Source of the DNA: a virus
DNA length: 56,448 nucleotides
Virus record (IMG/VR): IMGVR_UViG_3300036770_006698
Span: 1-56,448 of that record
Reading direction: 5' to 3' (one strand)
Below are positions 7,133-55,780 of the stretch, piece by piece; position 1 is the first letter of the stretch, and each line of letters opens with the position of its first letter. The notes below the pieces were generated by a model. It did not search any database and was not told the origin of the DNA. It was given only the letters and a program-made list of their open reading frames with translations. Both the position numbers and the translations under genes were made by a program.

Positions 7133-8500
7133 ATGAAAAAAATAGTAATTGTAGGAGCAGGAGTAGCAGGTGTAAATGCAGCAACAAAACTTGTTGATAA
7201 CGGTTATCCTGGTGAAATGATCACTGTAATTGATATGGGTAAAGATCCATACCAACGTAAACCTGAAGAAGTAATGACAGGTTTCTTAGGTGCTGGAGGT
7301 TGGTCTGATGGTAAATTGACTTATCACACAGCAATTGGAGGTCAACTATCAAAATATTGTGGTGAGGAAAAAGCAATGGAATTGATGGATCAAGTCATTA
7401 CCAATTTCAAACGTTTCCACCCTAAACCAGAAGAAGTACAATGTTCAAATCCTGAAGCAGAACCTGAATTTATCAAACCCTATTTTGGTTTACGCTTATT
7501 CCCAGTATGGCACGTAGGTACAGATTATCTATCTGAAATTGCTAAAAATTGGTATGATTATTTAGTTGAAAAAGGTGTAAAGTTTATTTGGGAAACTAAA
7601 GTAACTGATGTTAATTTTAATAAAAATTCATTAGGTTATTCTTCTTTACCTGTTAAACTAGGAAAAATTAAATCTTTAATATATGATGAACTTATATTTG
7701 CAGTAGGTAAATCAGGCATTGATTTTGCTCAAGAGCTAGCCCACCAATACGAACTCCCAGATGAACCCAAATCAGTACAAATTGGAGTTCGATTTGAAGC
7801 ACCACAAAAACACTTTCAAAAACTAATCGATATTTCATATGACTTTAAGTTATATAGAAAATTTGAAGATGAAGGAGTTTCATTACGTTCATTCTGTACA
7901 AATAATAATGCTGCTTATGTTGCTGTAGAGGAAACATATGGTGATCATTCATATAATGGACATGCTAAGAAAGACGAAGCATATAGAAATAATATGACTA
8001 ATTTCGGTATCTTAATGGAAATTAATGGTATTGAAGATCCGTTTAAATGGTCACGTGATGTAGTAAATAAAGTACAAGCAAATGGTACTGGTTTATATTA
8101 TAGTCCATCTCGTCAACCATCAACTACATCTGAAGGTAATGGTGTAACAGCAACTCAAATTAGTTTAGATACATTAGCTCATGTTGTTGAACCTGCTATG
8201 GAAGGTTACTTTAAATATGTTATGGATTTTATTCAAGACATGAAAAAAGTATTCCCAACATTACAAGACGATTGGGGTATTTATATTCCTGAAGTAAAAT
8301 ATCTATCACCTGAAGTTAAAGTAGATTATAGTAATTTAGCATTAGCTGATTATGCAAATGTACACTTTGTAGGTGATGCTTTATCAGCACGAGGTATTAC
8401 AGTATCAGGAGCACAAGCAATTTATGTTTGTGAATCTATACTTGGAGAACATAAAAATGATTTGTATCTTTACGAACAAGGAACAGGAGATTTATTTTAA
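7133..8500 (+). CDS. FAD-dependent oxidoreductase
   Basis: The 455-residue protein has an N-terminal Rossmann dinucleotide site, KIVIVGAGVAGVNAATKL (G8, G10, G13), and a C-terminal FAD-contact motif, HFVGDALSARGITVSGAQAI, with G414-D415. The GG-WSDGKL segment near residue 58 and the overall size fit uncharacterised FAD-dependent dehydrogenases (COG2509-like). I see no signal peptide, so it should be cytoplasmic. Substrate is unknown. It opens a four-gene island flanked upstream by two terminators, and a weaker TATATTTAAA element lies at about 7103-7113. This is an unusual gene for a T4-like phage and looks like an auxiliary metabolic gene. Confidence 0.8.
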   Translation: MKKIVIVGAGVAGVNAATKLVDNGYPGEMITVIDMGKDPYQRKPEEVMTGFLGAGGWSDGKLTYHTAIGGQLSKYCGEEKAMELMDQVITNFKRFHPKPEEVQCSNPEAEPEFIKPYFGLRLFPVWHVGTDYLSEIAKNWYDYLVEKGVKFIWETKVTDVNFNKNSLGYSSLPVKLGKIKSLIYDELIFAVGKSGIDFAQELAHQYELPDEPKSVQIGVRFEAPQKHFQKLIDISYDFKLYRKFEDEGVSLRSFCTNNNAAYVAVEETYGDHSYNGHAKKDEAYRNNMTNFGILMEINGIEDPFKWSRDVVNKVQANGTGLYYSPSRQPSTTSEGNGVTATQISLDTLAHVVEPAMEGYFKYVMDFIQDMKKVFPTLQDDWGIYIPEVKYLSPEVKVDYSNLALADYANVHFVGDALSARGITVSGAQAIYVCESILGEHKNDLYLYEQGTGDLF

Positions 8501-19061: not shown

Positions 19062-20834
19062 ATGTCACAAGTACAACAATTACTCGAAAGCGCAGCTGGC
19101 TCATGGAAGTCACTTCAAAGCGACGCTGCAAGATTGGCTGGAAAGTGGACCAAAACCGGTCTTCTTGAAGGTCTTACCGAGCTTGATAAAAATAACATGT
19201 CTATCTTGTTAGAAAACCAAGCTAAACAATTAGTAACTGAAACCAATACTATCTCTTCAAACTCATCATTCACTTCAGGTGGACAAGGTGAGAACTGGGC
19301 TGGTATTGCTCTTCCTTTAGTACGTAAAGTATTCGGTACTATCGTAGCTAAAGAATTCGTTTCAGTTCAACCAATGAACATGCCTTCAGGTCTTGTGTTC
19401 TTCTTAGATTTCCAATATGGTAATAATAAGACACCTTTCACTGCTGGTTCATCTTTATATGGTAACAGAAACACAGCTTCTCAATTCCCATTCTCTACTC
19501 CAGCTGCTGAAGGTGGTTTATATGGTGGTCCTGAGGGTCGTTTCACTTACGCAACTAACCAATTTACAGCATCTGCAAATTTAACTTCATCTTTAACAGG
19601 TGTTGCACCAAATGCAACAACAGGTACAGGTTCAATCGTATCTGCTTCTTGGGCTGAATTAAATTTCGATTCTACTTATTCAGCTTCTGTAGCTGCTGGT
19701 CAAATTTACAAATTTACGATTAGTTCTTCAACAATTCCTTCATTTGATCAAGACGCAACACGTGGTTTTGTATTAACTACAGGTTCATTGTTTAATGCAA
19801 CTACTTTATTACCTGCTTTTACAAATTACAACTACACAGCTGGTACAATTGCTTTCTTCTTTACTGGTTCATCTAACTTTGCTAGTATCCCTAACTCAGG
19901 TTCAGCAGTAACTGTATTCTACGAAAAATCAGGTAACCAAGATGGTATTAACGTAACTTCAGGTAACAACCAAACATCTGCTATCGGTGGTAACCAATCA
20001 GGTCGTGGTGATTTCGAAGCTGAAGGTGCTTTTGCAGTTCCTAACGCTGCGTCAGCTACTGACATCGTTATCCCTGAGATTAACGTAAGAATGCAATCTC
20101 AAGCCATCACTGCTAAAACCAAGAAATTGAAGGCAGTATGGACACCTGAATTTGCACAAGATTTAGCTGCTTACCAAAACATCGATGCTGAAGCTGAATT
20201 AACAAACATCATGTCTGAGTACATTTCAATGGAAATTGACCTTGAAATCTTAGATATGTTGATTGAAGATGCTGCTGCTGCTACTGAATATTGGTCAGCT
20301 GTAAACAACACAGTTTACAACCCAGCATCTGATACATTTGCTGCTGCTGCAACAACACAAGCGTTCTACAACACACAAGGTCAGTGGTTCCAAACATTAG
20401 GTACTAAAATCCAAAAAGTATCTAACAAAATCCACCAGTTGACTTTACGTGGAGGTGCTAACTTCTTAGTAACTTCTCCAACAATCGCTACTATCCTTGA
20501 GTCAATCCCAGGATTTGCTTCTACTAATAACGGTGAAGCTGATCAAATGGAATACGCTTTCGGTGTACAGAAAGTTGGTTCAGTTAATGGTCGTTACAAA
20601 GTTTACAAAAACCCTTACATGACTGAAAACTTAATCCTTATGGGTTATAGAGGTTCTCAGTTCTTGGAAACAGGTGCTGTATTCGCTCCATACATTCCAT
20701 TAATTATGACTCCTCTAGTGTACGATCCAGATACATTTACTCCACGTAAAGGTCTCTTGACTCGTTACGCTAAGAAGATGTTACGTCCTGAATTCTACGG
20801 TAAGATTTACATCAATGGTTTAAACACCATCTAA
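19062..20834 (+). CDS. gp23: Major capsid protein (T4 gp23-like)
   Basis: The 590-residue protein is longer than T4 gp23 (521). Residues 1-60 form a helical pro-region ending KQLVTE, a likely prohead protease site; NTISSNSSFTSGGQGENW follows. The HK97-type core shows ALPLVRKVFGTIVAKEFVSVQ near 84 and QAITAKTKKLKAVWTPEFAQ near 345. DLAAYQNIDAEAELTNIMSE comes next, as in gp23 (AKTRKLKAQW, DADAEL). Residues 165-320 hold an extra Ser/Thr/Asn-rich beta region that may be a surface insertion. A strong GAAA-loop terminator ends the unit. Codon use is smoother and more C-rich than neighbours, as expected for high expression. Confidence 0.95.
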   Translation: MSQVQQLLESAAGSWKSLQSDAARLAGKWTKTGLLEGLTELDKNNMSILLENQAKQLVTETNTISSNSSFTSGGQGENWAGIALPLVRKVFGTIVAKEFVSVQPMNMPSGLVFFLDFQYGNNKTPFTAGSSLYGNRNTASQFPFSTPAAEGGLYGGPEGRFTYATNQFTASANLTSSLTGVAPNATTGTGSIVSASWAELNFDSTYSASVAAGQIYKFTISSSTIPSFDQDATRGFVLTTGSLFNATTLLPAFTNYNYTAGTIAFFFTGSSNFASIPNSGSAVTVFYEKSGNQDGINVTSGNNQTSAIGGNQSGRGDFEAEGAFAVPNAASATDIVIPEINVRMQSQAITAKTKKLKAVWTPEFAQDLAAYQNIDAEAELTNIMSEYISMEIDLEILDMLIEDAAAATEYWSAVNNTVYNPASDTFAAAATTQAFYNTQGQWFQTLGTKIQKVSNKIHQLTLRGGANFLVTSPTIATILESIPGFASTNNGEADQMEYAFGVQKVGSVNGRYKVYKNPYMTENLILMGYRGSQFLETGAVFAPYIPLIMTPLVYDPDTFTPRKGLLTRYAKKMLRPEFYGKIYINGLNTI

Positions 20835-21905: not shown

Positions 21906-22859
21906 ATGTATAGTAGAATAATAAGTTTAACTAATGTTTTAAAAATGAAAGAAACCCCAAGTCAGTTGCCTATCCAAAGTTTTGTAATGAACTTTCCCTT
22001 TACCTTATCTACATCCGATCCCAATAATATTTGGATGCAAGAACTTACAGATGAGGATTTAGCTATTAACAGACCTAAAGCTTATAAACAATTTATGGAC
22101 CTATACAATTTTGTATCTGGTCAAACTTTAACTTATTTGCTCCCCGCAGAAGGTAATTTTCAAGATCAAGTTTATGTAGCTAATTTAGGTTTACAATTAC
22201 CTCACATTAAAAATGAAAATCACATTTTATTATCTAATTTTACCTCTGATCCTAGAAAAGGTGAAGAATTAGTTGGTGAAAAATTTTTTAACCAAATAGG
22301 TTACAAAACTCATATTTCTCCTTATAAATGGGAAGGTGAAGCTGATATTAAATATTTGTATGACAATGTTTATATAGGTGGTTATGGTATTCGTTCAAAT
22401 ATTAAAACATACGAGTGGATGGAGAAAAATTTTGATATGAATATTATTAAAGTTGCTATGACTGATGAATATTTGTATCATTTAGATTGTTCAATTTTTC
22501 CACTAAATGGTGATCAAACATTAATTTGTACTGAACTATATGACGAAAATGAAATTAAACTATTAGAAAAATATACTGAAATTATAGATGTAGATGTCGA
22601 AGACGCTTTAGGAGGAATGACCAATTCAGTACGTATGGGTAATATGGTTTTATGCGCTTCTAATATTTCTGAAATGAAAAAATCTCATGAATATTATGAA
22701 GGTGAAAAACATAAAATTGCATCATTAGAAAAAATTTGTTCTGATGCAGGTATGGAACCTGTTATATTCAACTTATCAGAATATATGAAATCAGGTGCTA
22801 TGTTATCTTGTATGATGATGCATTTGAATAGAGTTGATCATAACAAAACTTTACTGTAA
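21906..22859 (+). CDS. Amidinotransferase / dimethylarginine dimethylaminohydrolase-like enzyme
   Basis: The 317-residue protein (ATG 21945 is an alternative start) has the marks of the guanidino-group-modifying superfamily: PAEGNFQDQVYVANLGL near residue 80, matching the xxDxVFxANxGL strand. Then come KWEGEAD with E143 and D147, GGYGIRSN near 158, YLYHLDCSIFPL with H192, and SGAMLSCMMMHL with nucleophile C302. The Glu/Asp, His and Cys catalytic set is complete. Relatives hydrolyse arginine or methylarginine, or transfer an amidino group. The substrate is unknown. Its stop overlaps the start of the decarboxylase-like gene (TAATGG), so the two are probably co-translated. Uncommon in phages. 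Confidence 0.8.
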   Translation: MYSRIISLTNVLKMKETPSQLPIQSFVMNFPFTLSTSDPNNIWMQELTDEDLAINRPKAYKQFMDLYNFVSGQTLTYLLPAEGNFQDQVYVANLGLQLPHIKNENHILLSNFTSDPRKGEELVGEKFFNQIGYKTHISPYKWEGEADIKYLYDNVYIGGYGIRSNIKTYEWMEKNFDMNIIKVAMTDEYLYHLDCSIFPLNGDQTLICTELYDENEIKLLEKYTEIIDVDVEDALGGMTNSVRMGNMVLCASNISEMKKSHEYYEGEKHKIASLEKICSDAGMEPVIFNLSEYMKSGAMLSCMMMHLNRVDHNKTLL

Positions 22860-23599
22860 TGGCTCAAATACTAGAAGATTGGCTAAACGGTGAAGTTAAA
22901 GAATTACAAAAACTTCCTGTAGGAGAATTATCAAATACTTTCTTTTTTAGAGACCCACTCCGCCCAAACTATATTGATTATGAGCATTTTTATAGCCCAG
23001 CGGATGGAACAATTCTATATCAAAAAGTAGTCCAACCTGATGAATCAGTTGTGGAAATTAAAGGTATGAATTATACCTTAAAGGATGTAATGGGTGATAG
23101 TGATTATAATAAACCCTCATTGGTTATCGGTATATTTATGTCATTTTATGACGTTCACATAAACCGCATACCCTATGGTGGAATACTTAAATATAGACAC
23201 TTAGAACCCATTGAATCTACAAATAAACCAATGTTAGCGGTTGAGAAGGATATCTTAAATAAGGTAATCAATCCTAACAATATGGATTATTTGAAGTATA
23301 ACGAACGAATGTTTAACCAAGTGTATGTTCCTTCTCTAGATTACACATACTATCTAATACAAATAGCCGATGAGGATGTAAACGTGATTGCACCCTTTAA
23401 ACACCAAATGGATTTAGTAGCTCAAAATGAAAGATTTAGCTTAATCCGATGGGGTTCCCAAGTAGACTTAGTTCTACCTCTGGATGAAAGATTTGATTTC
23501 GAGCTTGTATTAGATGATGCTATGCACGTTAATGCAGGTCTCGATAAGTTAGTAAAACTTAATTTAAAAGACAATGGCATCAAACCATCATACCGATGA
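22859..23599 (+). CDS. psd: Phosphatidylserine decarboxylase-family enzyme
   Basis: This 246-residue protein is close in size to short (type II) bacterial phosphatidylserine decarboxylases. All three hallmark sites are present: FYSPADG with D49, IFMSFYDVHINRIPYGG with H100, and RWGSQVDLVLP with G199-S200. In the family, cleavage at Gly-Ser turns the Ser into the pyruvoyl group that decarboxylates phosphatidylserine to phosphatidylethanolamine. No membrane helix is visible. The substrate might instead be another amino acid ester or peptide. It overlaps the upstream deiminase-fold gene by one base and phoH downstream by 26 bases. Confidence 0.85.
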   Translation: MAQILEDWLNGEVKELQKLPVGELSNTFFFRDPLRPNYIDYEHFYSPADGTILYQKVVQPDESVVEIKGMNYTLKDVMGDSDYNKPSLVIGIFMSFYDVHINRIPYGGILKYRHLEPIESTNKPMLAVEKDILNKVINPNNMDYLKYNERMFNQVYVPSLDYTYYLIQIADEDVNVIAPFKHQMDLVAQNERFSLIRWGSQVDLVLPLDERFDFELVLDDAMHVNAGLDKLVKLNLKDNGIKPSYR

Positions 23600-24308
23600 G
23601 GTATTTAGAGAAAAAAGAATTATCAAAAATCCAATTAAATTTAAAATCCCGTTAAACGAAGAGCAAAAAGCTGCTAAGGAAGAAATACTAAATAATACAC
23701 TTACTATTTTAGCAGGTAGAGCAGGTTCAGGTAAAACATTACTTGCTTGTCAAATTGCATTAGATGGTCTATTAAGAAGACATTTTGAGAAAATTATAAT
23801 TACTCGCCCAACAGTATCAAGAGAAGAAATTGGTTTCTTACCAGGTGACTTAAGAGAAAAAATGGACCCTTGGGTACAACCAATTTATCAAAATATGTAT
23901 TCTCTTTATGATAAAGAAAAAGTAGAAGCTCTTATTAATGACGGTAAAATAGAAATTGTACCTTTAGCGTTTATGCGAGGTAGAACATTCTTAGATTCTT
24001 GTATTATTGTAGATGAGGCACAAAATGTTACTCATGAACAAATGGAAATGATTGCTACTCGCATTGGTTTACGTTCTAAAATGATTGTTTGTGGTGATGA
24101 TTATCAAGTCGATTTAAAAGCCAAACGTGATTCAGGCTTTAGATTTCTATATACAGCATCTCGTAAAATAAAAAATATGGTAGGTATTACTCTTAAACAA
24201 AATCATAGAGATCCTATCGTAGATGACCTGTTACAAATGTACGAAGAAGCTGCAGAAATAGGAATTACAACTGGTTCCGCAGGAACAAGCGGAAGAGCTA
24301 AAAAATAA
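23574..24308 (+). CDS. phoH: PhoH-like ATPase
   Basis: The 244-residue protein is a P-loop ATPase with Walker A GRAGSGKT (48-55) and Walker B IIVDEAQN (144-151). Typical PhoH segments are TRPTVSREEIGFLPGDLREK, MDPWVQPIYQNM and VCGDDYQVDL. PhoH homologues are widespread in aquatic phages and are probably RNA-acting ATPases or helicases; their role in infection is not settled. The start lies inside the decarboxylase gene in another frame. A TTTTTGTAATATTTATAG promoter-like region follows the stop. Confidence 0.92.
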   Translation: MASNHHTDEVFREKRIIKNPIKFKIPLNEEQKAAKEEILNNTLTILAGRAGSGKTLLACQIALDGLLRRHFEKIIITRPTVSREEIGFLPGDLREKMDPWVQPIYQNMYSLYDKEKVEALINDGKIEIVPLAFMRGRTFLDSCIIVDEAQNVTHEQMEMIATRIGLRSKMIVCGDDYQVDLKAKRDSGFRFLYTASRKIKNMVGITLKQNHRDPIVDDLLQMYEEAAEIGITTGSAGTSGRAKK

Positions 24309-28054: not shown

Positions 28055-31000
28055 ATGGCTCAAGTAAGATTTTTAGATCAAGTTCCCGTTGGTGTGTACC
28101 AAGTAAATTCTACCGATGGTAGTGGTACAATTGACATTTATCAAAATGGTACATTAGTTAGTGCTAGTGTACCTTTCCTAAATTTTTCAGGTTCAGTTGA
28201 ACTAACTACTTTTGATACTACAGGTGTTACAGTATATGTTTCTGGTTCAGGAGTAGGATTTCCTTTTTCAGGTTCAGCTGTTATTACTGGTTCTTTAGTA
28301 ATTTCAGGATCATCTCAACCAATTATACTTCAAACACTTCCTGTTCAAGATATAAATTATGTTGTAACTTATAACCCAACCACAGGTGTTGTAGGATATG
28401 TAAATACAACTTCAGGTACAAGTGGTTTTGCTGGTTCTTCAGGAACCACAGGACAGTCAGGAACAAGTGGTGCAAGTGGTACTTCTGGTACTTCAGGTTT
28501 AACTGGTTCTTCAGGTCAAACTGGTACATCCGGTACTTCAGGAATAGATGGTACTTCTGGCACTTCAGGTGATGCTGGCACTTCAGGCGAAAATGGTACA
28601 TCCGGTACTTCAGGAGAAAAGGGTACATCCGGTACTTCAGGAGAAAATGGTACATCCGGTACTTCAGGAGAAAATGGTACATCGGGAACAAGTGGTGAAG
28701 ATGGCACATCTGGTACTTCAGGGTTATCTGGTACTAGTGGTGAAATAGGTACAAATGGCACCTCAGGCGAAGACGGTACTTCAGGTACTTCAGGTTTAGC
28801 CGGAACAAGTGGATTAACAGGTACTTCAGGTACTTCAGGAATAAATGGTACTTCAGGTTCAACTGGTTCTTCAGGAACTTCAGGTCAAACAGGAACAAAT
28901 GGTACTTCTGGTGAAAATGGTACATCCGGTACGTCTGGTTTAGATGGTACCTCAGGTGAATCTGGTACTTCAGGAACAAGTGGTGAAGATGGCACATCCG
29001 GTACTTCAGGATTATCTGGTACTAGTGGTGAATCTGGTACTTCAGGTACTAGTGGTGAAGACGGAACTTCAGGTACTTCAGGTTTAAATAGTACCTCAGG
29101 TGAATCTGGTACTTCAGGAACAAGTGGCACAAGTGGTACAATAGGTAGTTCAGGTAGAACAGGACCTGGTGATCTTCCAGGTTCAGGAACAAGTGGAACT
29201 TCAGGAACTTCAGGAACATCCGGAACTTCAGGTGAAGACGGTACTTCAGGTAGTTCAGGTTTAGCTGGCACCTCAGGCGAAAATGGTACATCTGGTACTT
29301 CAGGTGAAGACGGTACATCAGGTATAAGTGGTACATCTGGTACAACTGGTTCTAATGGAATAAGTGGAGAAAACGGTTCTTCAGGAATTTCAGGCGAATC
29401 AGGAACTTCAGGTACAAATGGTTCAAATGGTATATCAGGTGAAAATGGAATAAATGGTACATCAGGTGTAAGTGGTACATCTGGTACAACTGGTTCTAAT
29501 GGAACCTCAGGTGAAAATGGCACCTTAGGAACTTCAGGTTTAGCAGGTACTAGTGGCACTACAGGAAGTAATGGAACTTCAGGTGAAAATGGTACTACAG
29601 GTACCTCAGGAATAAGTAGTGAATCCGGTTCAACAGGAACTTCTGGTACATCTGGTGAAGACGGTACTATCGGTTCTTCAGGTATCTCAGGTGTAAGTGG
29701 TTCAACTGGCACCTCAGGTAGTTCAGGAGCTAACGGTACTATAGGTACTTCAGGAATTTCAGGTAATTCTGGTTCCACAGGAACAAGTGGTACCTCTGGT
29801 GAAGATGGCACTACAGGTACCTCAGGAATTTCAGGTGAGTCTGGTTCTACAGGTTCATCAGGTATTTCAGGTGAAAGTGGTTCAAATGGTACTTCAGGTA
29901 TTTCAGGACAAAGTGGTTCAACTGGTACTGCTGGTACTTCTGGTGGATCAAGCACATCAGGTTCTTCAGGAACAAGTGGCGACTCAGGCACTTCAGGTGA
30001 AGCTGGAACTTCAGGTTTATCCGGTACTTCAGGTTCATCTGGTACTTCAGGTGAAGCTGGAACTTCAGGAAATAGTGAAACATCTGGTTCAAGCGGAACA
30101 TCAGGTACATTTGGTACTTCAGGTGAAGCTGGAACTTCAGGTGAAAGTGCTATCTCTGGTACTTCAGGTACATCAGGTTCAAATGGTTCTTCAGGAGAAG
30201 AAGGTACATCTGGTATTTCAGGTTTAAGTGGTACTAGTGGTTCAACAGGTACAAATGGTACTAGTGGTGATAATGGTTCAACAGGTACTTCAGGTACCTC
30301 AGGTGAGAATGGCTCAACAGGTACTTCAGGTATCTCAGGAAATTCTGGTTCAACTGGTTCAGCAGGTACTTCAGGTCAAAATGGTACTTTCGGTACTTCA
30401 GGTATTTCAGGTGAATCAGGAACAACTGGTTCTTCAGGAACAAGTGGTGAAGATGGTACCTCAGGTACTTCAGGTATTTCAGGTGAATCCGGAACAACAG
30501 GTACAAGTGGAACAAGTGGTGATAATGGTTCAACAGGCACTTCAGGTGTAAGTAGTACTAGTGGTTCAACAGGCACATCAGGTACTTCTGGTGAAAATGG
30601 AACCTCAGGTACTTCAGGAACAAGTGGAGAATCAGGTTCATCTGGTACTTCAGGAACAAGTGGAGAATCAGGTTCAACAGGCACTTCGGGTACTTCAGGA
30701 AATAGTGAAACGTCTGGTTCCTCAGGCACTTCAGGATCTAATGGTTCTAGTGGTAATGCTGGAACAAGTGGTTTAAGTAACACATCTGGTACTTCTGGTT
30801 CAACAGGTACAAATGGTTCTTCAGGAGATGCTGGAACAAGCGGATTATCAAACATAAGTGGCTCCTCAGGAACTACTGGATCTAATGGTACAAGTGGTAA
30901 TGCTGGTACTTCAGGAAATAGTGAAACGTCTGGTTCTTCAGGTACTTCTGGTACAAACGGTACAACAGGAGACTCTGGAACTTCAGGTGAAAGTGCTACT

Positions 31001-34000
31001 TCAGGTACGAGTGGTTCAACTGGTACAAACGGTACAACAGGAGACGCTGGAACTTCAGGTGAAAGTGCTACTTCAGGTACAAGCGGTTCTTCAGGAACTG
31101 TAGGTTCTACAGGAGATGCCGGAACTTCAGGTGTTTCAAACACAAGTGGTTCCTCAGGCACATCTGGTTCAAACGGTTCTTCAGGTGAAGCTGGAACAAG
31201 TGGATTATCTAATACAAGTGGTTCTTCAGGTACTTCTGGTACAAACGGTACAACAGGAGACGCTGGAACTTCAGGTGAAAGTGCTACTTCAGGTTCTTCA
31301 GGAACAAGTGGTTCAGTTGGTACCTCAGGTAATGCTGGAACAAGTGGATTAAGTACAACTTCTGGTTCAAGTGGTTCTTCTGGAACAAACGGTTCAACAG
31401 GAGTTGACGGTAACTCAGGTTTAAGCAGAACTTCAGGTTCATCTGGTTCTTCAGGTTCAACAGGAACTACAGGTTCTTCAGGTGTTGCTGGTGAATCAGG
31501 ATTAAGTAATACAAGTGGTACATCTGGGTCTTCAGGTTCAGTTGGTACTTCAGGAAATATAGGTACAAGTGGTTTAAGTAGAACTTCAGGTTCTAGTGGA
31601 ACAAGTGGTACAAATGGTACTTCCGGAGATGGAGATTTAGGAACTTCAGGTTTAAGTCGCAGTTCAGGTTCAAGCGGAACAAGCGGTACTAATGGTTCAA
31701 CAGGTAATGCTGGTACTTCAGGATTAAGTAATACATCAGGCACAAGTGGTTCTTCAGGTACAAACGGTTCAACAGGTGAAGCTGGAGATTCAGGTCAAAG
31801 TAAAATTTCAGGAACAAGTGGATCTTCAGGTTCAGTTGGTACCTCAGGTAATATAGGAACTTCAGGTTTAAGTCGCAGTTCAGGATCTTCAGGTACATCA
31901 GGTACAAACGGTACTTCCGGAGATGGAGATTTAGGAACAAGTGGATTAAGTAGAAGCTCAGGTTCAAGTGGTACCTCAGGAACTAATGGTTCAACAGGGG
32001 ATGCAGGTACTTCAGGTAATTCAAATACATCAGGATCTGCAGGTACAAGCGGTTCAAATGGTTCATCAGGAGCGGCTGGTACTTCAGGTATTAGTAATGT
32101 TTCTGGTTCATCAGGAAGTTCAGGTTCAAATGGTTCAACAGGTGCTGCTGGAACAAACGGATTAAGTCAATTATCAGGCACTTCAGGAAGTTCAGGTTCA
32201 AATGGTTCATCAGGTAATGCTGGAAATAGTGGTGCTAGCGCAACAAGTGGAACAAGTGGTTCTACAGGTACATCAGGTTCAGTAGGAGTTAGTGGTAATG
32301 CTGGAACATCAGGTGCAAGTAATACTTCAGGTTCATCAGGATCTACTGGTACAAATGGTACTTCAGGTGTAGCTGGAACTAGTGGATTATCAAATACAAG
32401 CGGTTCTTCAGGTTCAACAGGAACTTCAGGTTCTTCAGGAGCTGCAGGCGCTTCAGGAGCAAGTGCTACTTCAGGAACAAGTGGTTCTTCAGGTTCAACT
32501 GGTACTTCAGGTTCTTCAGGTGCTGCAGGTGCATCAGGTGCTAGCGCTACTTCAGGAACAAGTGGTTCAACTGGTACAAACGGTACCTCAGGTAACGTTG
32601 GAACAAGTGGATTAAGTCGTAGTTCAGGTTCATCAGGATCTTCGGGTTCAATAGGTACCTCAGGTAACGACGGTACTTCAGGATTAAGTAGAACTTCAGG
32701 TTCAAGCGGTTCAGCTGGTACAAACGGTACTTCAGGAAACGATGGTACTTCTGGTTCAAGTAGAACTTCAGGTTCATCTGGTACAAGTGGCTCTTCAGGA
32801 TCTACAGGTACAAACGGTACTTCAGGAAATGCAGGTACTTCAGGTGCTTCAAATACTTCTGGTTCTTCAGGTTCAACTGGTACTAACGGTTCAGCAGGAG
32901 TAGCAGGTACTAGTGGATTAAGTAATACATCAGGATCATCAGGTACAACAGGTTCAAATGGAACAAGTGGAAATGCCGGTACAAGTGGTGTTAGTGCTAA
33001 CTCAGGAACTTCCGGTTCAACGGGTACAGCAGGTACTACAGGAGCTGCTGGAACTAGTGGTTCATCAAATACAAGTGGTTCTTCAGGAACTACTGGTTCA
33101 AATGGAACAAGTGGTAATGCTGGAACAAGCGGATTAAGCCGTAGTTCAGGCTCATCCGGTTCTTCAGGTACAGTTGGTACCTCAGGTAATGATGGTACTT
33201 CTGGTTTAAGTAGAACATCTGGTTCTTCAGGTTCAACAGGTACTAATGGTAATTCGGGCAATGCCGGAACAAGTGGATTAAGTGCTACCTCTGGTTCTTC
33301 AGGATCAACAGGTACAGCAGGTACTACAGGTAATGCAGGTACGAGTGGTGTTAGTGCTAACTCAGGAACTTCAGGTACAACTGGTTCAAACGGTACTTCA
33401 GGAAACTCAGGTAATGCTGGAACAAGCGGATTATCAAACACAAGTGGTTCATCAGGTACAACAGGTTCAGTAGGTACATCAGGTGTTGCTGGTACTAGTG
33501 GTCCAAGTCAAACCTCAGGTACAAGTGGTTCATCTGGTACTAATGGCTCATCTGGTGATACTAGTAATTCAGGATTAAGCAGAACTTCAGGTTCTTCAGG
33601 TTCAACTGGTACAAACGGTACTTCAGGTAATTCAGGAAATGCCGGAACAAGTGGTGCTAGTGCAACTTCTGGTACATCAGGTTCAGCTGGTACATCAGGT
33701 ACCTCAGGTAATGCTGGAACAAGTGGTGCTAGTGCTAACTCAGGTACATCAGGTTCAGCTGGTACTGCAGGTACCTCAGGTAACACAGGAACAAGCGGTT
33801 TAAGTCGTACCTCAGGTTCATCAGGAACTACAGGTTCAAATGGTACTTCTGGAAATAACGGAACCTCAGGTAATTCAGGTAATTCAGGTACAAACGGAAC
33901 TACAGGTTCAAATGGTACTTCTGGAAATAATGGAAACAATGGCAACTCAGGATTATCAGGTACAAGCGGAACTACAGGTTCAAACGGTACCTCAGGTAAC

Positions 34001-36253
34001 TCAGGAAACGCGGGTACTTCAGGATTAAGTCGGACTTCAGGTTCAAGCGGAACTAATGGTTCAAATGGTACCTCCGGAAATAATGGTACTTCAGGAAACG
34101 CAGGTACTTCAGGATTAAGCCGCAGCTCAGGTTCATCCGGAACAACAGGTTCAAACGGTAACTCAGGTAACGCAGGTAACTCTGGTTTAAGTGCAACCTC
34201 AGGTTCAAGTGGAACCAATGGTTCCAATGGTAACTCAGGAAACGCGGGTACTTCAGGATTAAGTCGGACTTCAGGTTCAAGCGGAACTAATGGTTCAAAT
34301 GGTACCTCCGGAAATAATGGTACTTCAGGAAATGCAGGTACTTCAGGATTAAGCCGCAGCTCAGGTTCAAGCGGAACTACAGGATCTAATGGTACTTCAG
34401 GTAACGCAGGTAACTCAGGTAACGCAGGTACTTCTGGTCTAAGTGCAACTTCAGGTTCAAGTGGAACCAATGGTTCCAATGGTAACTCAGGAAACGCAGG
34501 TAATTCTGGCTTAAGTCAGACTTCAGGAACATCGGGTTCAAGCGGAACTAATGGTTCAAACGGTAACTCAGGAAACGCAGGTACTTCAGGATTAAGCCGC
34601 AGCTCAGGTTCAAGCGGAACAACAGGTTCAAACGGTAACTCTGGCAACTCAGGTAACTCAGGTACTTCTGGTTTAAGTGCAACCTCAGGTTCAAGCGGAA
34701 CAACAGGTTCTTCAGGTAACTCAGGTAACGCAGGTAACTCTGGTTTAAGTCGGACTTCAGGTTCATCAGGAACATCAGGTTCAAGCGGAACAACAGGTTC
34801 AAACGGTAACTCAGGTAACGCAGGTAACTCTGGTTTAAGCCGCAGCTCAGGTTCATCAGGAACCTCAGGTTCAAGCGGAACAACAGGTTCTTCAGGTAAC
34901 TCAGGAAATGCAGGTAATTCTGGTTTAAGTCGGACTTCAGGTTCATCAGGAACTTCAGGTTCATCAGGTTCTAATGGTACTTCAGGTAACTCTGGTAACT
35001 CAGGAAACGCAGGTACTTCAGGATTAAGCCGTAGTTCAGGTTCATCAGGAACTTCAGGTTCATCCGGAACAACAGGTTCTTCAGGTAACTCAGGAAACGC
35101 AGGTAATTCTGGCTTAAGTCGGACTTCAGGTTCATCAGGAACTTCAGGTTCATCAGGTTCTAATGGTACTTCAGGTAACTCTGGTAACTCAGGAAACGCA
35201 GGTACTTCAGGATTAAGCCGTAGCTCAGGTTCAAGCGGAACTAATGGTTCAAACGGTAACTCAGGAAACAACGGAGTTTCAGGTAACTCAGGTAACTCAG
35301 GTACAAGTGGTTCAAATGGTAGTTCAGGAAACTCAGGAAACAACGGTAACTCAGGAGCATCAGGAACTTCAGGTACAACTGGTTCTTCAGGTACAAATGG
35401 TGTTTCAGGAAACAAAGGTAATTCAGGTGTAAGTGCGCTTTCAGGTTCTTCAGGTTCATCAGGTTCTAATGGAACATCAGGAGCAAACGGAACTAATGGT
35501 ACAAGTGGTGTAGCGGGAACAAGTGGTCAATCAATCAACGGTACCTCAGGTATTAGTGGTGGTGTATTTACCAATCAACCAGATTATTTAGTAAGAACTA
35601 CAAGTACAACAACAGTACAAAGTGTATCATTCTTATATGCTGATATTACAAATACTAGATTAGGTGTTAATACTACAGGCCCAACACAAACATTAGATGT
35701 AAATGGTAGTGTATCATTTTCTGGAGAAAATGTCTTATGGTCTGATGCTGAAAATTATTTATGGGCAGGTGATACAGCTCTTTCAGGTACTACAATTACC
35801 GCTAAACTTTATCCAGGACATACATCTATATTAGATCCAAATCAAGCTGCAGTTTATGTTCAAGGAACAATACTTCATAGCCAAACCTCCGGAGAAGCAT
35901 TAACAGTTGGTCAATTAGTACATTACCAGGCTGCCTCAGGTCAATGGTTTAGAACAGATGCTGATGCACTTTCTACAACTGAATTTATATTAGGGGTAGT
36001 ATTAAGAACAGTTGCTGGAGTTGGAAACGAAATCTCAGTATTAATTGATGGTATATATACTACTAACTTAATAGATGGTGTAGCAACAATTGGTGATCCA
36101 CTTTATGTAGGAACAACTGCGGGTAATGTTAGTGCAACCGTACCAACAGCAGCAGGTTCTATTATAAGAGGAGTAGGAAACGTAATCAGACAAAATGGAG
36201 CCTACTATACAATAAACTTCAGACCTGATACAACTTATTTTACTAACGGATAA
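28055..36253 (+). CDS. Giant collagen-like fibre protein
   Basis: The protein has 2,732 residues, the largest here. Residues 1-120 form a beta-rich head with fibre-like strands ([13 protein letters not shown]). About residues 121-2503 are nearly unbroken Gly-X-Y triplets, mostly GTS, GSS, GEN, GLS, GNA and GNS, with almost no proline. Register breaks occur at PGDLPG near residue 373 and at two GDGDL units. The C-terminal 230 residues are a beta domain with [20 protein letters not shown] and [20 protein letters not shown], similar to phage fibre tips. It should trimerise into a fibre hundreds of nanometres long, likely on the tail or neck. Three glycosyltransferase genes follow, suggesting that its many Ser/Thr residues are glycosylated. 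Confidence 0.9.
33995..34369 (+). repeat. Recent 234-base duplication in the fibre gene
   Basis: The 141 bases from 33995 recur at 34229 (offset 234, or 78 codons) with one visible difference (AAACGCAGG against AAATGCAGG). Near identity including synonymous positions points to recent duplication or gene conversion. Confidence 0.75.
34860..35230 (+). repeat. Recent 189-base tandem duplication in the fibre gene
   Basis: Sequence from about 34860 to 35040 recurs at an offset of 189 bases (63 codons), from about 35049 to 35229, with only scattered single-base changes. The unit keeps the Gly-X-Y frame. Confidence 0.7.
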
Positions 36254-36306: not shown

Positions 36307-38964
36307 ATGCAAAAATTGTTATTTATTGCCCCACATTTATCAACAGGCGGACTCCCACAATATTTAACCAAGAAGATAGAATTACTTAGAAATACTTACG
36401 AGATTTATCTTGTAGAATGGGTAGATTGTACTGGAGGCGTTTTAGTAATAACTAAAAATAAAATAGTTAATTTAGTTGATTCTGATAAATTTTTTACTCT
36501 TAAAGAAGATAAACAAGAATTAATTGATATTATTCATCATGTTAAACCGGATATTATTCATTTAGAAGAAATTCCTGAGTTTTTTATGGATGAAAATATT
36601 GCTAAACAAATTTATAATACGGAAAGAAATTATAAAATTGTAGAAACATCTCATGATTCATCTTTTGATACAAACAATAAAAAATTCTTCCCAGATAAAT
36701 TTATGTTTGTATCTCAATGGCAAATTAATCAGTATCAAGATATTAATGTTCCAAGCGTATTAGTTGAATATCCTATTGAATATATTGAACGCCCTGACCG
36801 TGAAGAGGCACTGCGTAATCTACAATTAGATCCCGCTAAAAAACATGTTTTACATGTAGGATTATATACTTCTCGTAAAAATCAAGCAGAATTTTTTGAA
36901 TATGCTAGACAATTTCCTGATGTAGAATTTCATAGTTTAGGAAATAGAGCAGATAATTTTAAATGGTATTGGGAACCATTAGCCAAAGATCAACCCTCAA
37001 ATTTAACATGGTGGAATGAACGCACAGATGTAGATAAGTTCTACCAGGCAATGGATTTATTTTTATTTACCTCCAGAGGTCATGAAAACGATAAAGAAAC
37101 AATGCCTTTAGTTATTCGTGAAGCAATTTCATATCAAATTCCTACATTAATATATAACCTTCCTGTTTATTTAGATTATTTTAATAAATTCCCTACTATT
37201 GATTATTTAAAATTTGATGATTTTAAAACTAATTATGACAAAATTGCTAAAAAATTAGGTATTAAAGAATCAAATTCAGATGAAGAAATATTTATCTTAT
37301 CTACTTTTCCAATAAGTGATGCTGTAATTGAAACCACATTAAAAACTATAGATTCAATTCAAGCTAGAGGAAATAAAGTTTTAGTTACATCACATATTCC
37401 TGTTCCATTTTCTATTGAAGCAAAAGCAGATTATGTTGTTGTAGATAACAATAATATTCTTACAAAACATACCTATTATAGTAATTATTGGGCAGATCAT
37501 CCTGATCATAAAGTTTATATTAATTTAAGAGGAAATAATAATGATATATATCATGGTCCTAGTGTTTATTCAAATTATGTAAATGGTGCTTCTTTAGCAA
37601 AAAGTTTAGGATATAAAAAATTATTTTTTCTTAATTTTGATTATACAATTCAATCATCTCATCATATAGATGAAATTTCTAAAATATTAGATAATAAAAA
37701 AGCATATTTTGGTAAATATAAAGCTTCCGAAGGTGATGCTTTACATACTTATTTTTGTGCAATTCATTCTGATTTCTTTTTTGATCATATTCATCAAATT
37801 TATAATGCTGAAGATTATGAACAACTTCGTTTTCAATTAGGAAGTGAAAGTAATGGTTTAGAAAATATGTGGTATCATATTTTTAAACGAAGTACTGATT
37901 ATATATATTTTGAAGATATTGAAATTTTTGATCAAAAAAGTTTAGAAACATTTGATCATTCTGATTTTTCCCAAGTAGAATATTACACAGTATTACCAAC
38001 TAATATTCCAAACTCATTTGCTCCTTATATTAGAATTTCTAATAGTAAAGAATCAAGATTTATTCGAGTTGTAATACGCGATAAAGATAAAAATGAAATA
38101 TTTTTTGATGAATTAAATGTAGAGGGTAAAACAGATTATTACAAAGTTTTTCGATATGAAGAAGGAATGGAAGTAGAATTTACCATAGGTAATTATCATA
38201 AAACTTTAAAAGTTATTACAATTCAAGTAACTAATTTAGAATTTAATGGAAAATTAGAAGTAAAACATTATATTCCTAAAATAAAATTAATGCATTTAGT
38301 TACTGAACCTGATTCTAATTCTAAAGAAATTAAATCAATAGAAAACATTAAGGATTTTTGTGAAAAAACAGATATAGTATACGAACAACGTATTAATGAA
38401 ATCTGGAAAGAACTCCCTCCAAAAGAAACATGTTCTCGCCCACAAGATGTTCAAGATAAACCAGGCTACTATAAATTAGCTCCTGGACATTATGGGTGCT
38501 ATTTAGCTCATAAAAATGCTTTATGTGCTGAAGATAATACTAAATATGATTTTGTATTAATTGTAGAAGGTGATGTTGTAATAGACAGTGATTATCAAGA
38601 ATTATATGAATCTTTGATTAGATTTAATAAATTATCATATCAAACTGATATGGATATTATAGGATTTGGTAATCCATGGCAGGATAGAAATTTAAATGGC
38701 CCTAAAATAGAAGACATTTATACAGATGTAACTCCTTTTATCCCAGCTCAATCGTATTTAATTAATAATGTTAAAATTAGAAAAATCAAGGTAATGCTAG
38801 AAACATTACCCTGGGATGCTATTGATTTATGGATATGTAATGTAGCTAGATTAAGAGTAGGTACAGCAGAAAAAATTTACACCAAACATCTCCCAGGATT
38901 TAGTATAGTAGAACAATCCAATAAAGATGGTAAAACAGATAATCCCTTAATATTTACAGAATAA
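36307..38964 (+). CDS. Three-domain glycosyltransferase with C-terminal GT25-like domain
   Basis: The 885-residue protein has three parts. Residues 1-330 are GT4/GT-B-like, with APHLSTGGLPQYLTKKIELL at the start, HVGLYTSRKNQAEFFEYARQ near 180 and IREAISYQIPTLIYN near 275. Residues 335-600 look GT-A-like (FILSTFPISDAVIETTLKTI, then YKKLFFLNFDYTI). About 655-885 resemble GT25: KLAPGHYGCYLAHKNAL, then FVLIVEGDVVI with the E754-G755-D756 acidic motif. Known GT25 members transfer galactose to lipooligosaccharide or to collagen hydroxylysine. Next to a giant collagen-like protein it probably builds a glycan on the fibre. The sugar is unknown. The stop overlaps the next ATG. Confidence 0.8.
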   Translation: MQKLLFIAPHLSTGGLPQYLTKKIELLRNTYEIYLVEWVDCTGGVLVITKNKIVNLVDSDKFFTLKEDKQELIDIIHHVKPDIIHLEEIPEFFMDENIAKQIYNTERNYKIVETSHDSSFDTNNKKFFPDKFMFVSQWQINQYQDINVPSVLVEYPIEYIERPDREEALRNLQLDPAKKHVLHVGLYTSRKNQAEFFEYARQFPDVEFHSLGNRADNFKWYWEPLAKDQPSNLTWWNERTDVDKFYQAMDLFLFTSRGHENDKETMPLVIREAISYQIPTLIYNLPVYLDYFNKFPTIDYLKFDDFKTNYDKIAKKLGIKESNSDEEIFILSTFPISDAVIETTLKTIDSIQARGNKVLVTSHIPVPFSIEAKADYVVVDNNNILTKHTYYSNYWADHPDHKVYINLRGNNNDIYHGPSVYSNYVNGASLAKSLGYKKLFFLNFDYTIQSSHHIDEISKILDNKKAYFGKYKASEGDALHTYFCAIHSDFFFDHIHQIYNAEDYEQLRFQLGSESNGLENMWYHIFKRSTDYIYFEDIEIFDQKSLETFDHSDFSQVEYYTVLPTNIPNSFAPYIRISNSKESRFIRVVIRDKDKNEIFFDELNVEGKTDYYKVFRYEEGMEVEFTIGNYHKTLKVITIQVTNLEFNGKLEVKHYIPKIKLMHLVTEPDSNSKEIKSIENIKDFCEKTDIVYEQRINEIWKELPPKETCSRPQDVQDKPGYYKLAPGHYGCYLAHKNALCAEDNTKYDFVLIVEGDVVIDSDYQELYESLIRFNKLSYQTDMDIIGFGNPWQDRNLNGPKIEDIYTDVTPFIPAQSYLINNVKIRKIKVMLETLPWDAIDLWICNVARLRVGTAEKIYTKHLPGFSIVEQSNKDGKTDNPLIFTE

Positions 38965-39923
38965 TGAAAATTTGCCAAATAGATCCTGGTTGTGGTATTC
39001 CTATTCCCCCTCCATCGTGGGGAGCTATTGAAAAAATTGTTTGGGAATTTACTCAAAATCTTACCAAATTAGATCATCAAGTTGATATTAAAATGTCAGG
39101 ACATATCCACCCAGGAGAATATGATATTGTACACTGTCATGTAGCAAATTTAGCTATTCAATTAGCTAAAAAAGGTATTCCTTATATATATCAAATTCAT
39201 GATCACCATGCTTATCATTATGGTAAAGAATCTCATGTTTATAAAGAAAATCTAAAAGCAATTGAAGGTTCTATTATAGCTTTAATGCCTGCCCGTTTTT
39301 TAGTTGATTATTTTGATCACCCTAAATGTATATATTTTTCTCATGGTGTAAATACTGATGATTTTTATCCTGTTGATAAACCAAAACCAATAAAACCAAA
39401 ACTATTAATGATAGCTAATAATGGATTAGCAGGAAATCAATCCTATGATAGAAAAGGTTTTACATACGGTTTAGGGTTAGCTATGTTAAATAATTTAGAA
39501 ATTACTATAGCTGGTCCTTCTGCTAATAAAAGTTTTTTTAATTCACATTTATGGATGTTAAATTATCCTAAATTAAATTTAGTATTCGATACTCATAATA
39601 ATGAATTATTAAATCTTTATCATCAACATGATATCTTTATTCACCCAACAATGTTAGAAGCAGGCCATCCTAATTTAACAATGGTTGAAGCAGCTGCAGC
39701 TGGTTTACCAATTATTGCTGATTGGGAACTAAATACAGATTTTCATGGTGCTTGGAGAGCTCCTAGAGATGTATTTGAAATGGATAAAGGTTTAAAAGAT
39801 ATTATGTCTAATTGGGAATCATATAGAGAAAAAGTTTTTAATACATCTCAAGAATTATCATGGTTTAATCGTTCAAAAGAATTAATAAAAATATATGAAA
39901 GAAGTTTTAATCAAGGAGTATAA
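38964..39923 (+). CDS. GT4-type glycosyltransferase
   Basis: The 319-residue protein has the GT-B pattern of retaining GT4 enzymes: KICQIDPGCGIPIPPPSWGA with IEKIVWEF, then HCHVANLAIQLA, a FSHGVNTDDFYPVD donor-domain linker near residue 131, and HPTMLEAGHPNLTMVEAAAA followed by GLPII. The usual E-x7-E donor motif is stretched here to E232-x9-E242. It should use a nucleotide-sugar donor in the cytoplasm. It overlaps the upstream gene by one base and the next by 29, so all three transferases are one unit. Confidence 0.85.
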   Translation: MKICQIDPGCGIPIPPPSWGAIEKIVWEFTQNLTKLDHQVDIKMSGHIHPGEYDIVHCHVANLAIQLAKKGIPYIYQIHDHHAYHYGKESHVYKENLKAIEGSIIALMPARFLVDYFDHPKCIYFSHGVNTDDFYPVDKPKPIKPKLLMIANNGLAGNQSYDRKGFTYGLGLAMLNNLEITIAGPSANKSFFNSHLWMLNYPKLNLVFDTHNNELLNLYHQHDIFIHPTMLEAGHPNLTMVEAAAAGLPIIADWELNTDFHGAWRAPRDVFEMDKGLKDIMSNWESYREKVFNTSQELSWFNRSKELIKIYERSFNQGV

Positions 39924-41091
39924 TAACATCTCTCAACTTAATTTACCTTATAAAAAAACTAGTAATACTTTTAATGTTCATTTTTTAAATGGAGCATTTT
40001 TAGAAATATTAGGTTCTGATTCAAAAAAATACTTAGTAAAATTCTTTGACCAACAAAAAAATCATCTGATATACGAATCAGAAATTTCTAATAATATGTG
40101 GACCAAACCAGGTATTGAATATTTTATTGATTGGAAAATAGAAGTTTATGATCTAGAGAACAATGAATTAGTATTTGAACATAAATTCGATGCTAAAGAT
40201 AAAAGAATCTATATCCATTTAGAATCCTCAGCTATTGGTGATACATTAGCATGGTTTCCATATATTGATGAATTTAGAAAAAAACATAAATGTCATGTAA
40301 TTTGTTCTACTTTTCACAATGAGTGGTTTGAAAAAGAATATCCTGAACTAGAATTTGTTACCCCCGGTACTGAAGTCCCAAAATTATATGCAATGTATAA
40401 TATTGGATGGTTTTATGATAATAAAGAAGTTGTTAAAACAAAAATACCAATAGATTTTAAACAACATCCTTTAGGGGAAACATCAACCTCAGTATTAGGT
40501 TTATCTTATACTGAAATAAAACCTAAAATTAATATTCCAAATAAAGCAAAACAAATCGAAGGTAAATATGTTGTCATAGCTCCTCATGCTTCGGCACATG
40601 CTAAATATTGGAACTATCCTGGTGGGTGGCAATCTGTTATTGATTATTTAAATGAAAAAGGTTATAAAGTAGTAATGATTACTCAAGAACGTTTAGGAGA
40701 TAAATGGCATGATTCTAAATTAGGGGGAACATTAAAAAATGTAATTGATAAAACAGGAAATTATACTATTGAAGATAGAATGGTAGATATAAATCATGCT
40801 GATGCTTTTATAGGTGTTGGAAGTGGATTATCATGGTTAGCTTGGTCTCTTAACACTCCTGTAATTTTAATCTCTGGATTTAGTTTACCTTATAGTGAAT
40901 TTACAGATTGTGAACGTATATTTAATTATGATACCAATATTTGTACAGGATGTTTTAATAAAGAATGGTTAAATCCTGGGGATTGGGAATGGTGTCCTAG
41001 CCATAAAAATACATCAAGACATTTTGAATGTACTAAATCAATTAAACCTGAAAAAGTGTTTGATTCTTTAAATAAAATTTTAAATTTTTAA
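39895..41091 (+). CDS. TibC-like protein O-heptosyltransferase (GT9-type)
   Basis: The 398-residue protein has an N-terminal beta domain (residues 15-100) and a GT-B domain: HLESSAIGDTLAWFPYIDEF, VVIAPHASAHAKYWNYPGGW, and VGSGLSWLAWSLNTPVILIS. Its C-terminus holds four cysteines in the order CTGC (C350, C353), WCP (C367) and FEC (C379), with the HK-x-x-x-R-x-FECTKSI context. That is the metal-binding signature of bacterial autotransporter heptosyltransferases (TibC/Aah group), which O-heptosylate serines of secreted repeat proteins using ADP-heptose. Here the likely acceptor is the Ser-rich collagen-like fibre encoded upstream. Recognition is good; the acceptor is inferred. Confidence 0.85.
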   Translation: MKEVLIKEYNNISQLNLPYKKTSNTFNVHFLNGAFLEILGSDSKKYLVKFFDQQKNHLIYESEISNNMWTKPGIEYFIDWKIEVYDLENNELVFEHKFDAKDKRIYIHLESSAIGDTLAWFPYIDEFRKKHKCHVICSTFHNEWFEKEYPELEFVTPGTEVPKLYAMYNIGWFYDNKEVVKTKIPIDFKQHPLGETSTSVLGLSYTEIKPKINIPNKAKQIEGKYVVIAPHASAHAKYWNYPGGWQSVIDYLNEKGYKVVMITQERLGDKWHDSKLGGTLKNVIDKTGNYTIEDRMVDINHADAFIGVGSGLSWLAWSLNTPVILISGFSLPYSEFTDCERIFNYDTNICTGCFNKEWLNPGDWEWCPSHKNTSRHFECTKSIKPEKVFDSLNKILNF

Positions 41092-54952: not shown

Positions 54953-55780
54953 ATGGATTTAAATGAAATGAGAAACCGACTGTCTGCAATGCAGTCAAAA
55001 CAATCCGGTAAAGGCGGCGGAGAAAAAAAATCTGTCTTTTGGAAACCCTCAGTAGGTAAACAAATAGTCCGTGTAGTACCTTCCAAGTACAACAAGAAAA
55101 ACCCATTCACCGAAATGTATTTCCATTATGGTATTGGAAAAAACACTATGGTGTCTCCAATTAACTTTGGTGAAAAAGATCCAATCGTAGAATTTGCAAA
55201 ACAATTGCGTACTACTAGCGACAAGGAAAACTGGCGTTTAGCTAAAAAACTTGATCCTAAAATGCGTATTTTTGTTCCTGTACTTGTACGTGGCGAAGAA
55301 TCTGAAGGTGTTAAGTTGTGGCAATTTGGTAAGGAATTGTATATGGATTTCTTGAATCTTGCAGATAACGAGGATGTAGGTGATTTCACAGACGTAATGA
55401 ATGGTCGTGATATTACATTGACTACTGTAGGTCCTGAAGTAACAGGTACAAACTACAACAAAACAACTATTATGCCTAAAGTTAAAGAAACTTTATTGGC
55501 TGAAGACAAAGCAACTATCGAAGCATTGTTGGACAATCAACCTAACCCTATGGAAGTATTTAAAAAATACTCATATGATGAAATGAAGCAAGCACTTCAA
55601 GAATGGTTGACTCCTGAAGATGAGTATGAAGAAGGTGCTATTATTGATGATGAAAAAGAAGAAGTTGTTGTTGAAAAACCTTCTAAAGCTTATTCAATCA
55701 AAACCCCGGTAAAAGAACAAGCAAGTAAAGCAGATAAATTTGATGCTTTATTTGAAGAAGACGACGATTTACCATTTTAA
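54953..55780 (+). CDS. gp32: Single-stranded DNA-binding protein (T4 gp32-like)
   Basis: The 275-residue protein starts MDLNEMRNRLSAMQSKQSGK, a basic self-interaction region like gp32's B domain. The OB-fold core follows: FWKPSVGKQIVRVVPSKYNK, NPFTEMYFHYGIG, and VPVLVRGEESEGVKLWQFGK. The zinc-binding Cys/His set of T4 gp32 is absent. The C-terminus is acidic and ends EEDDDLPF, which matches the tip of bacterial SSB proteins (DDDIPF) rather than T4 gp32. It should coat ssDNA in replication and recombination and precedes uvsX by 11 bases. Confidence 0.88.
   Translation: MDLNEMRNRLSAMQSKQSGKGGGEKKSVFWKPSVGKQIVRVVPSKYNKKNPFTEMYFHYGIGKNTMVSPINFGEKDPIVEFAKQLRTTSDKENWRLAKKLDPKMRIFVPVLVRGEESEGVKLWQFGKELYMDFLNLADNEDVGDFTDVMNGRDITLTTVGPEVTGTNYNKTTIMPKVKETLLAEDKATIEALLDNQPNPMEVFKKYSYDEMKQALQEWLTPEDEYEEGAIIDDEKEEVVVEKPSKAYSIKTPVKEQASKADKFDALFEEDDDLPF

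Follow-up and report, generated by a model that had tools for sequence, protein, structure and literature searches.

A phage-specific branch of the phosphatidylserine decarboxylase family paired with an arginine dihydrolase relative: a possible arginine-to-putrescine route in T4-like phages

Introduction

Among the described enzymes closest to the decarboxylase analyzed here is the phosphatidylserine decarboxylase (PSD) of E. coli (Psd, PF02666; PDB 6l06 and 7cnw-7cnz), in which Y137 and S166 touch the lipid phosphate, a Y137F/S166A double mutant is strongly impaired, and H144 is required for both decarboxylation and cleavage (PMC7952604). The pyruvoyl PSD fold also occurs in enzymes that do not use phosphatidylserine as a substrate, namely fungal PsiD (8x4q, 8zia) and the arginine decarboxylase of Aspergillus oryzae (9jer, 9jf5), and the PDB thus holds a precedent for PSD-fold enzymes acting on free tryptophan and free arginine. 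Both proteins are about 400-460 residues long and carry a long N-terminal domain, whereas the phage proteins described below have about 240-280 residues.

In phages, ornithine and arginine decarboxylases derived from SpeD have been published (PMC9992855, PMC10407285). Like the protein studied here, they are phage-encoded pyruvoyl enzymes, leading to putrescine or agmatine, the same role that we propose below; they belong, however, to a different family (SpeD/AdoMetDC). Phosphatidylserine decarboxylase is not mentioned in PMC9992855; that paper reports finding arginase in no phage and agmatine deiminase in chloroviruses alone. A marine survey took viral psd and pssA as lipid genes and found the abundance of psd to be negligible (PMC11360552). 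In GenBank, the Campylobacter phage copies of the two genes considered here are named phosphatidylserine decarboxylase and 'aminidotransferase', with no link drawn between them, and a literature search, incomplete in coverage, yielded no paper proposing the pair as a pathway.

Results

Identity and predicted self-cleavage of the decarboxylase

The window, that is, the whole stretch of 56,448 nucleotides analyzed (IMG/VR record IMGVR_UViG_3300036770_006698), encodes Gp23 (19062-20834), PhoH (23574-24308) and a gp32-like protein (54953-55780), in agreement with the T4-like setting proposed in a preliminary description made from the sequence. The features considered below are all on the plus strand:

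21906..22859, plus strand: guanidine-modifying enzyme (GME), a relative of arginine dihydrolases (NCBIfam, PDB profile search, conservation)
22857..22861, plus strand: TAATG, in which the GME stop codon and the decarboxylase start codon overlap by one base (sequence)
22859..23599, plus strand: PSD-family (PF02666) pyruvoyl decarboxylase of a soluble type without membrane anchor, 246 aa (family match, alignment, model)
23003..23005, plus strand: codon of D49, equivalent to D90 of E. coli PSD (alignment, conservation in 116 proteins)
23135..23137, plus strand: codon of F93, at the position of the phosphate contact Y137 of E. coli PSD (F in 116/116 phage proteins)
23156..23158, plus strand: codon of H100, equivalent to H144 of E. 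coli PSD (alignment, conservation in 116 proteins)
23237..23245, plus strand: codons of A127-V128-E129, with A127 at the position of E. coli S166 and E129 a phage-specific acid (A and E in 116/116)
23369..23377, plus strand: codons of D171-E172-D173, an acidic patch (alignments)
23453..23458, plus strand: codons of G199-S200, the predicted self-cleavage site (alignment to G253-S254, structural superposition)
23574..24308, plus strand: PhoH, the conserved downstream neighbor, whose start overlaps the decarboxylase end (PF02562, E=4.6e-64)

The decarboxylase reading frame starts with ATG and encodes 246 residues followed by a stop codon, at exactly the coordinates given in the preliminary description. 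PF02666 (PS_Dcarbxylase) was the sole family returned by a Pfam hmmscan (E=3.8e-25; score 89.2 bits, cut-off 22), and the protein also matched phrog_12670, a PHROG family of 'unknown function' (E=6.7e-41). Both scores lie far beyond chance, and the protein is a genuine relative of phosphatidylserine decarboxylase. Its D49, H100 and G199-S200, recognized as hallmark residues in the preliminary description, align with D90, H144 and G253-S254 of E. coli PSD and are unchanged across 116 distinct phage relatives, all of which thus retain the Asp-His and Gly-Ser elements of the family; D98 is likewise conserved. Comparison with relatives 80-90% identical gave a dN/dS of about 0.02-0.08, and the gene is kept under strong purifying selection.

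An AlphaFold2 model built from a 31-row alignment reached a pLDDT of 81.5; a model from 18 near-identical rows (pLDDT 37.7) was set aside. The model superposed on E. coli PSD over 166 residues with a Z-score of 9.8, and the superposed range stops at model residue 198 and E. coli residue 252, so the cleavage sites of the two proteins coincide. PsiD (Z 8.6) and the A. oryzae arginine decarboxylase (Z 7.8) likewise scored as having the same fold as the model. Since unrelated EIIA-Glc domains outrank PSD in this comparison with somewhat higher scores, similarity of fold gives modest support by itself, and it is the sequence match that carries the assignment. Conservation of D49, D98, H100 and G199-S200, together with superposition at the cleavage site, makes the self-cleavage to a pyruvoyl enzyme anticipated in the preliminary description well supported by the anatomy of the predicted protein: S200 would become the pyruvoyl group, and the predicted chains have computed masses of about 23.4 and 5.4 kDa.

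Elsewhere in the window, a 2732-aa protein (28055-36253) consists mostly of a long Thr-Ser-Gly/Asn-Gly collagen-like repeat, and three glycosyltransferase-like genes (GT group 1 twice, GT family 9) stand in a row amid structural genes at 36307-41091. A 455-aa FAD/NAD-dependent oxidoreductase-like protein is encoded at 7133-8500; it has relatives of 23-24% identity in Campylobacter Fletchervirus, and was not adopted as a third pathway gene because Bacteroides phages with the gene pair described below yielded no relative of it.

The partner gene and its coupling to the decarboxylase

The gene overlapping the decarboxylase start, which the preliminary description had left unmentioned, encodes a putative guanidine-modifying enzyme. 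Relatives begin at an internal ATG at 21945 (MKETPSQ...), which is therefore a likelier start than 21906. The protein matched the NCBIfam Arg_dihydro model with E=1.3e-22, but with 80.4 bits it lies below the equivalog cut-off of 450, and the only PDB entries matched in a profile search were the arginine dihydrolases ArgZ (Sll1336) and AgrE (Alr4995). With the N-terminal domain of these enzymes the phage GME shares the guanidine-modifying fold, the cysteine, histidine and acids, and two asparagines and two arginines; unlike them, it has no ornithine cyclodeaminase domain and scores under the family cut-off. Ten positions (N41, D87, N93, R117, E143, D147, R163, H192, D194 and C302) are all unchanged in 107 distinct proteins, and the catalytic-type and substrate-type residues expected of an arginine dihydrolase are present. 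In the alignment D194 is an aspartate, as in arginine deiminases, whereas dimethylarginine dimethylaminohydrolases (DDAHs) have a lysine at this position (PMC11659421). The Bacteroides phage GME scores best to a dimethylargininase model. Of the Bacteroidota genomes sampled, roughly one in four encoded a cellular GME relative, and a PSD-like gene adjoined none of the 11 cellular loci checked.

Among viral contigs, marine relatives keep the order gp23, GME, decarboxylase and PhoH almost everywhere, and, with distinct decarboxylase proteins as the unit of counting, 102 of 111 pairs showed the one-nucleotide overlap. The remaining pairs include a 722-nt gap and genes on opposite strands, with both genes still present; on one contig resembling a Bacteroides phage, the GME and the decarboxylase are encoded on different strands, with about 1.6 kb between them. 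We regard PhoH as a conserved neighbor and make no claim for it as a pathway member. Across 50,697 phage records the decarboxylase occurred in 45, from Campylobacter and Bacteroides phages, and the GME in 45/45 of these, although the 45 records come from few lineages and are related to one another, so that the counts overstate independence. A GME without the decarboxylase was seen in just two phage records, one a partial copy and the other a distant Xanthomonas phage protein. The two genes are adjacent in Bacteroides phages, while in the Campylobacter Fletchervirus records measured they are 43-93 kb apart and both retained, and both were present in all ten of the related phage records searched, of which nine are long marine ones and one is a Campylobacter phage. 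That three lineages have kept both genes despite rearrangement suggests that they serve one pathway, and the decarboxylase and the GME are very probably functionally coupled.

A proposed route from arginine to putrescine

We propose that the overlapping genes work together as a phage-encoded pathway from host L-arginine to putrescine, with the PSD-fold decarboxylase acting on ornithine, a reading that we consider evenly balanced between right and wrong. The GME (21945-22859), through its Cys302/His192/acid site, would remove the guanidino group of arginine to give ornithine, CO2 and two ammonia. The decarboxylase, after self-cleavage at G199-S200 and formation of the pyruvoyl cofactor from S200, would remove the carboxyl group of free ornithine to give putrescine, its acidic residues E129, D171 and D173 taking the place of the side chains with which true PSDs contact the lipid phosphate. 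Late in infection, putrescine, or spermidine that the host derives from it, would then neutralize packaged DNA and assist translation. We infer that both enzymes are active, that their substrates are arginine and ornithine, and that the phage benefits; for the decarboxylase, a free cationic amino acid is the likely class of substrate, and ornithine in particular has a chance close to even, at best.

No other polyamine genes were found beside the pair in these phages: SpeD (PF02675) was present in 0/11 related phage records, and neither SpeE nor PLP-type ornithine decarboxylase genes were found in the related records searched. The lack of all of these, and of a PssA-type gene (see below), fits a route that stops at putrescine. 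In Bacteroidota and Campylobacter, putrescine is converted to spermidine through carboxyspermidine, and for phages of such hosts it would make sense to stop there.

The same end product could be reached in the reversed order, with the decarboxylase converting arginine to agmatine and the GME then taking the guanidino group off agmatine to yield N-carbamoylputrescine or putrescine. The solved PSD-fold enzyme of A. oryzae is indeed an arginine decarboxylase, and the acidic E129, D171 and D173 are possible ligands of a guanidinium group. However, the invariant R117 and R163 of the GME align with what we take to be the carboxylate-binding arginines of the guanidine-modifying superfamily, and agmatine has no carboxylate; on this assignment, the GME substrate would be an alpha-amino acid rather than agmatine, and the GME would act first. 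Its PDB matches are, moreover, arginine-using enzymes and not agmatine deiminases. We therefore consider the reversed order unlikely.

Comparison with lipid-type PSDs

The preliminary description suggested that the enzyme could change host lipid head groups during infection or, failing that, decarboxylate another molecule. A genuine decarboxylase of phosphatidylserine or a related serine lipid, remodeling host phospholipid head groups, would account for the PF02666 match, for the full catalytic set, and for the best NCBIfam relatives being PSD models, and it is the reading implied by the GenBank name of the Campylobacter phage copies. Against these points, the best NCBIfam score was 71.5 bits, under the PSD equivalog cut-off of 183, and the Campylobacter and Bacteroides phage decarboxylases also fall under this cut-off. 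The phage decarboxylases lack a hydrophobic N-terminus, with a maximum 19-residue hydropathy of at most 0.86 compared with 2.0-3.1 in 18 host short PSDs (1.13 in a single longer, type-II-like host PSD). In a tree with sampled cellular PSDs they formed a clade of their own (support 98/96), the exact placement of which is left unsure by long branches. Compared with E. coli Psd, which has the same fold, the Gly-Ser self-cleavage site and equivalents of D90, D142 and H144, the phage protein is thus distinguished by the absence of N-terminal membrane helices, by its separate clade and arginine-enzyme partner gene, and by the changes Y137 to F and S166 to A along with E129, D171 and D173.

These substitutions differ in weight. 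The Y137 position is likewise occupied by F, and the 166 position by residues other than Ser, in short Bacteroidota PSDs; because the Y137F change is common to such ordinary enzymes, the lost phosphate contacts are weak evidence against a lipid substrate, and F93 by itself was dropped as an argument against phosphatidylserine. Cellular PSDs have S, V, F or G in the A127 column and N, W, S or K in the E129 column, in an alignment that is gapped around these residues and differs between MAFFT modes. D171 was found in 115/116 phage decarboxylases and an acid at 173 in 112/116, with Q replacing D173 in the Campylobacter phage rows. The D173 column holds I, L or M in PSDs and Glu in both PsiD and the A. 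oryzae arginine decarboxylase. In the alignments, E129, D171 and the acid at 173 are phage-specific relative to cellular PSDs, which have neutral or other residues there, and F93, D173 and probably A127 resemble the PSD-fold decarboxylases of free amino acids: PsiD and the A. oryzae enzyme share the F and the acid, and have A at the S166 position by a pairwise reading of an alignment that is not unique there. No match between the phage decarboxylase and these two enzymes was detected at the sequence level, as E. coli PSD was the only protein listed by PDB profile searches run up to E=10.

The genomic context also speaks against a lipid role. A CDP-alcohol phosphatidyltransferase (PssA-type) gene was absent from ten related phage records, a pattern-limited scan of viral contigs with Bacteroidota-type short PSDs as seeds returned no relative, and a lipid function would give no reason for the gene to be paired constantly with an arginine enzyme. 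Remodeling of phospholipid head groups is thus quite improbable, and the missing anchor, the missing PssA-type gene and the near-invariant arginine-dihydrolase-like partner make this part of the preliminary description doubtful, whereas its fallback of a different substrate appears to fit the protein better.

As for the origin of the phage branch, a scan of genome contigs gave one match only, a phage-derived contig in a Flavobacteriales assembly, and no close cellular source of the decarboxylase was therefore found. This metagenome-assembled genome (NZWA01000018.1) holds a contig of the same phage group with the gene pair, which weakly hints at a Bacteroidota host or else reflects a binning artefact. 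Among 395 Bacteroidota genomes searched by profile, three held a second PSD homolog that scored better; lying among genes for polysaccharide or other biosynthesis, with hydrophobic N-termini and without the acidic residues, they belong to a different subfamily from the phage decarboxylase. Some Bacteroidota encode a second, long PSD-family protein (about 450-480 aa) related to PsiD and the Aspergillus arginine decarboxylase, and these are candidate bacterial free-amino-acid decarboxylases.

Discussion

The enzyme pair described here combines a PSD relative that would self-cleave with a partner that resembles an arginine dihydrolase, in phages from marine, Bacteroides and Campylobacter sources. 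That the pair might instead modify a macromolecule or nucleotide, for example a DNA base or peptide carrying an arginine- or ornithine-derived group that is later decarboxylated, has a precedent in the putrescine-decorated bases of phage phiW-14 and could draw on a thymidylate-synthase family protein, possibly a hydroxymethylase, in 4/10 related records, but this protein was not found in the other 6/10 pair-carrying records and no transferase was identified that would connect the pair with DNA or protein, which makes this explanation very unlikely.

Returning to the arginine-to-putrescine route, we suggest, more tentatively than we propose the route itself, that a phage-only branch of the PSD family has exchanged its lipid substrate for a free cationic amino acid, and that together with an arginine dihydrolase it forms a compact, translationally coupled pathway in T4-like phages of the three groups. 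The pair is a small two-gene system that is directly testable, with two enzymes, one overlap and one predicted product. If the proposal is correct, phage genome annotations that call this gene a phosphatidylserine decarboxylase are wrong, the interpretation as phage lipid remodeling fails for this group, and the PSD fold would represent a second, unrelated pyruvoyl-enzyme solution, besides the SpeD-derived decarboxylases, for the supply of polyamines in phages.
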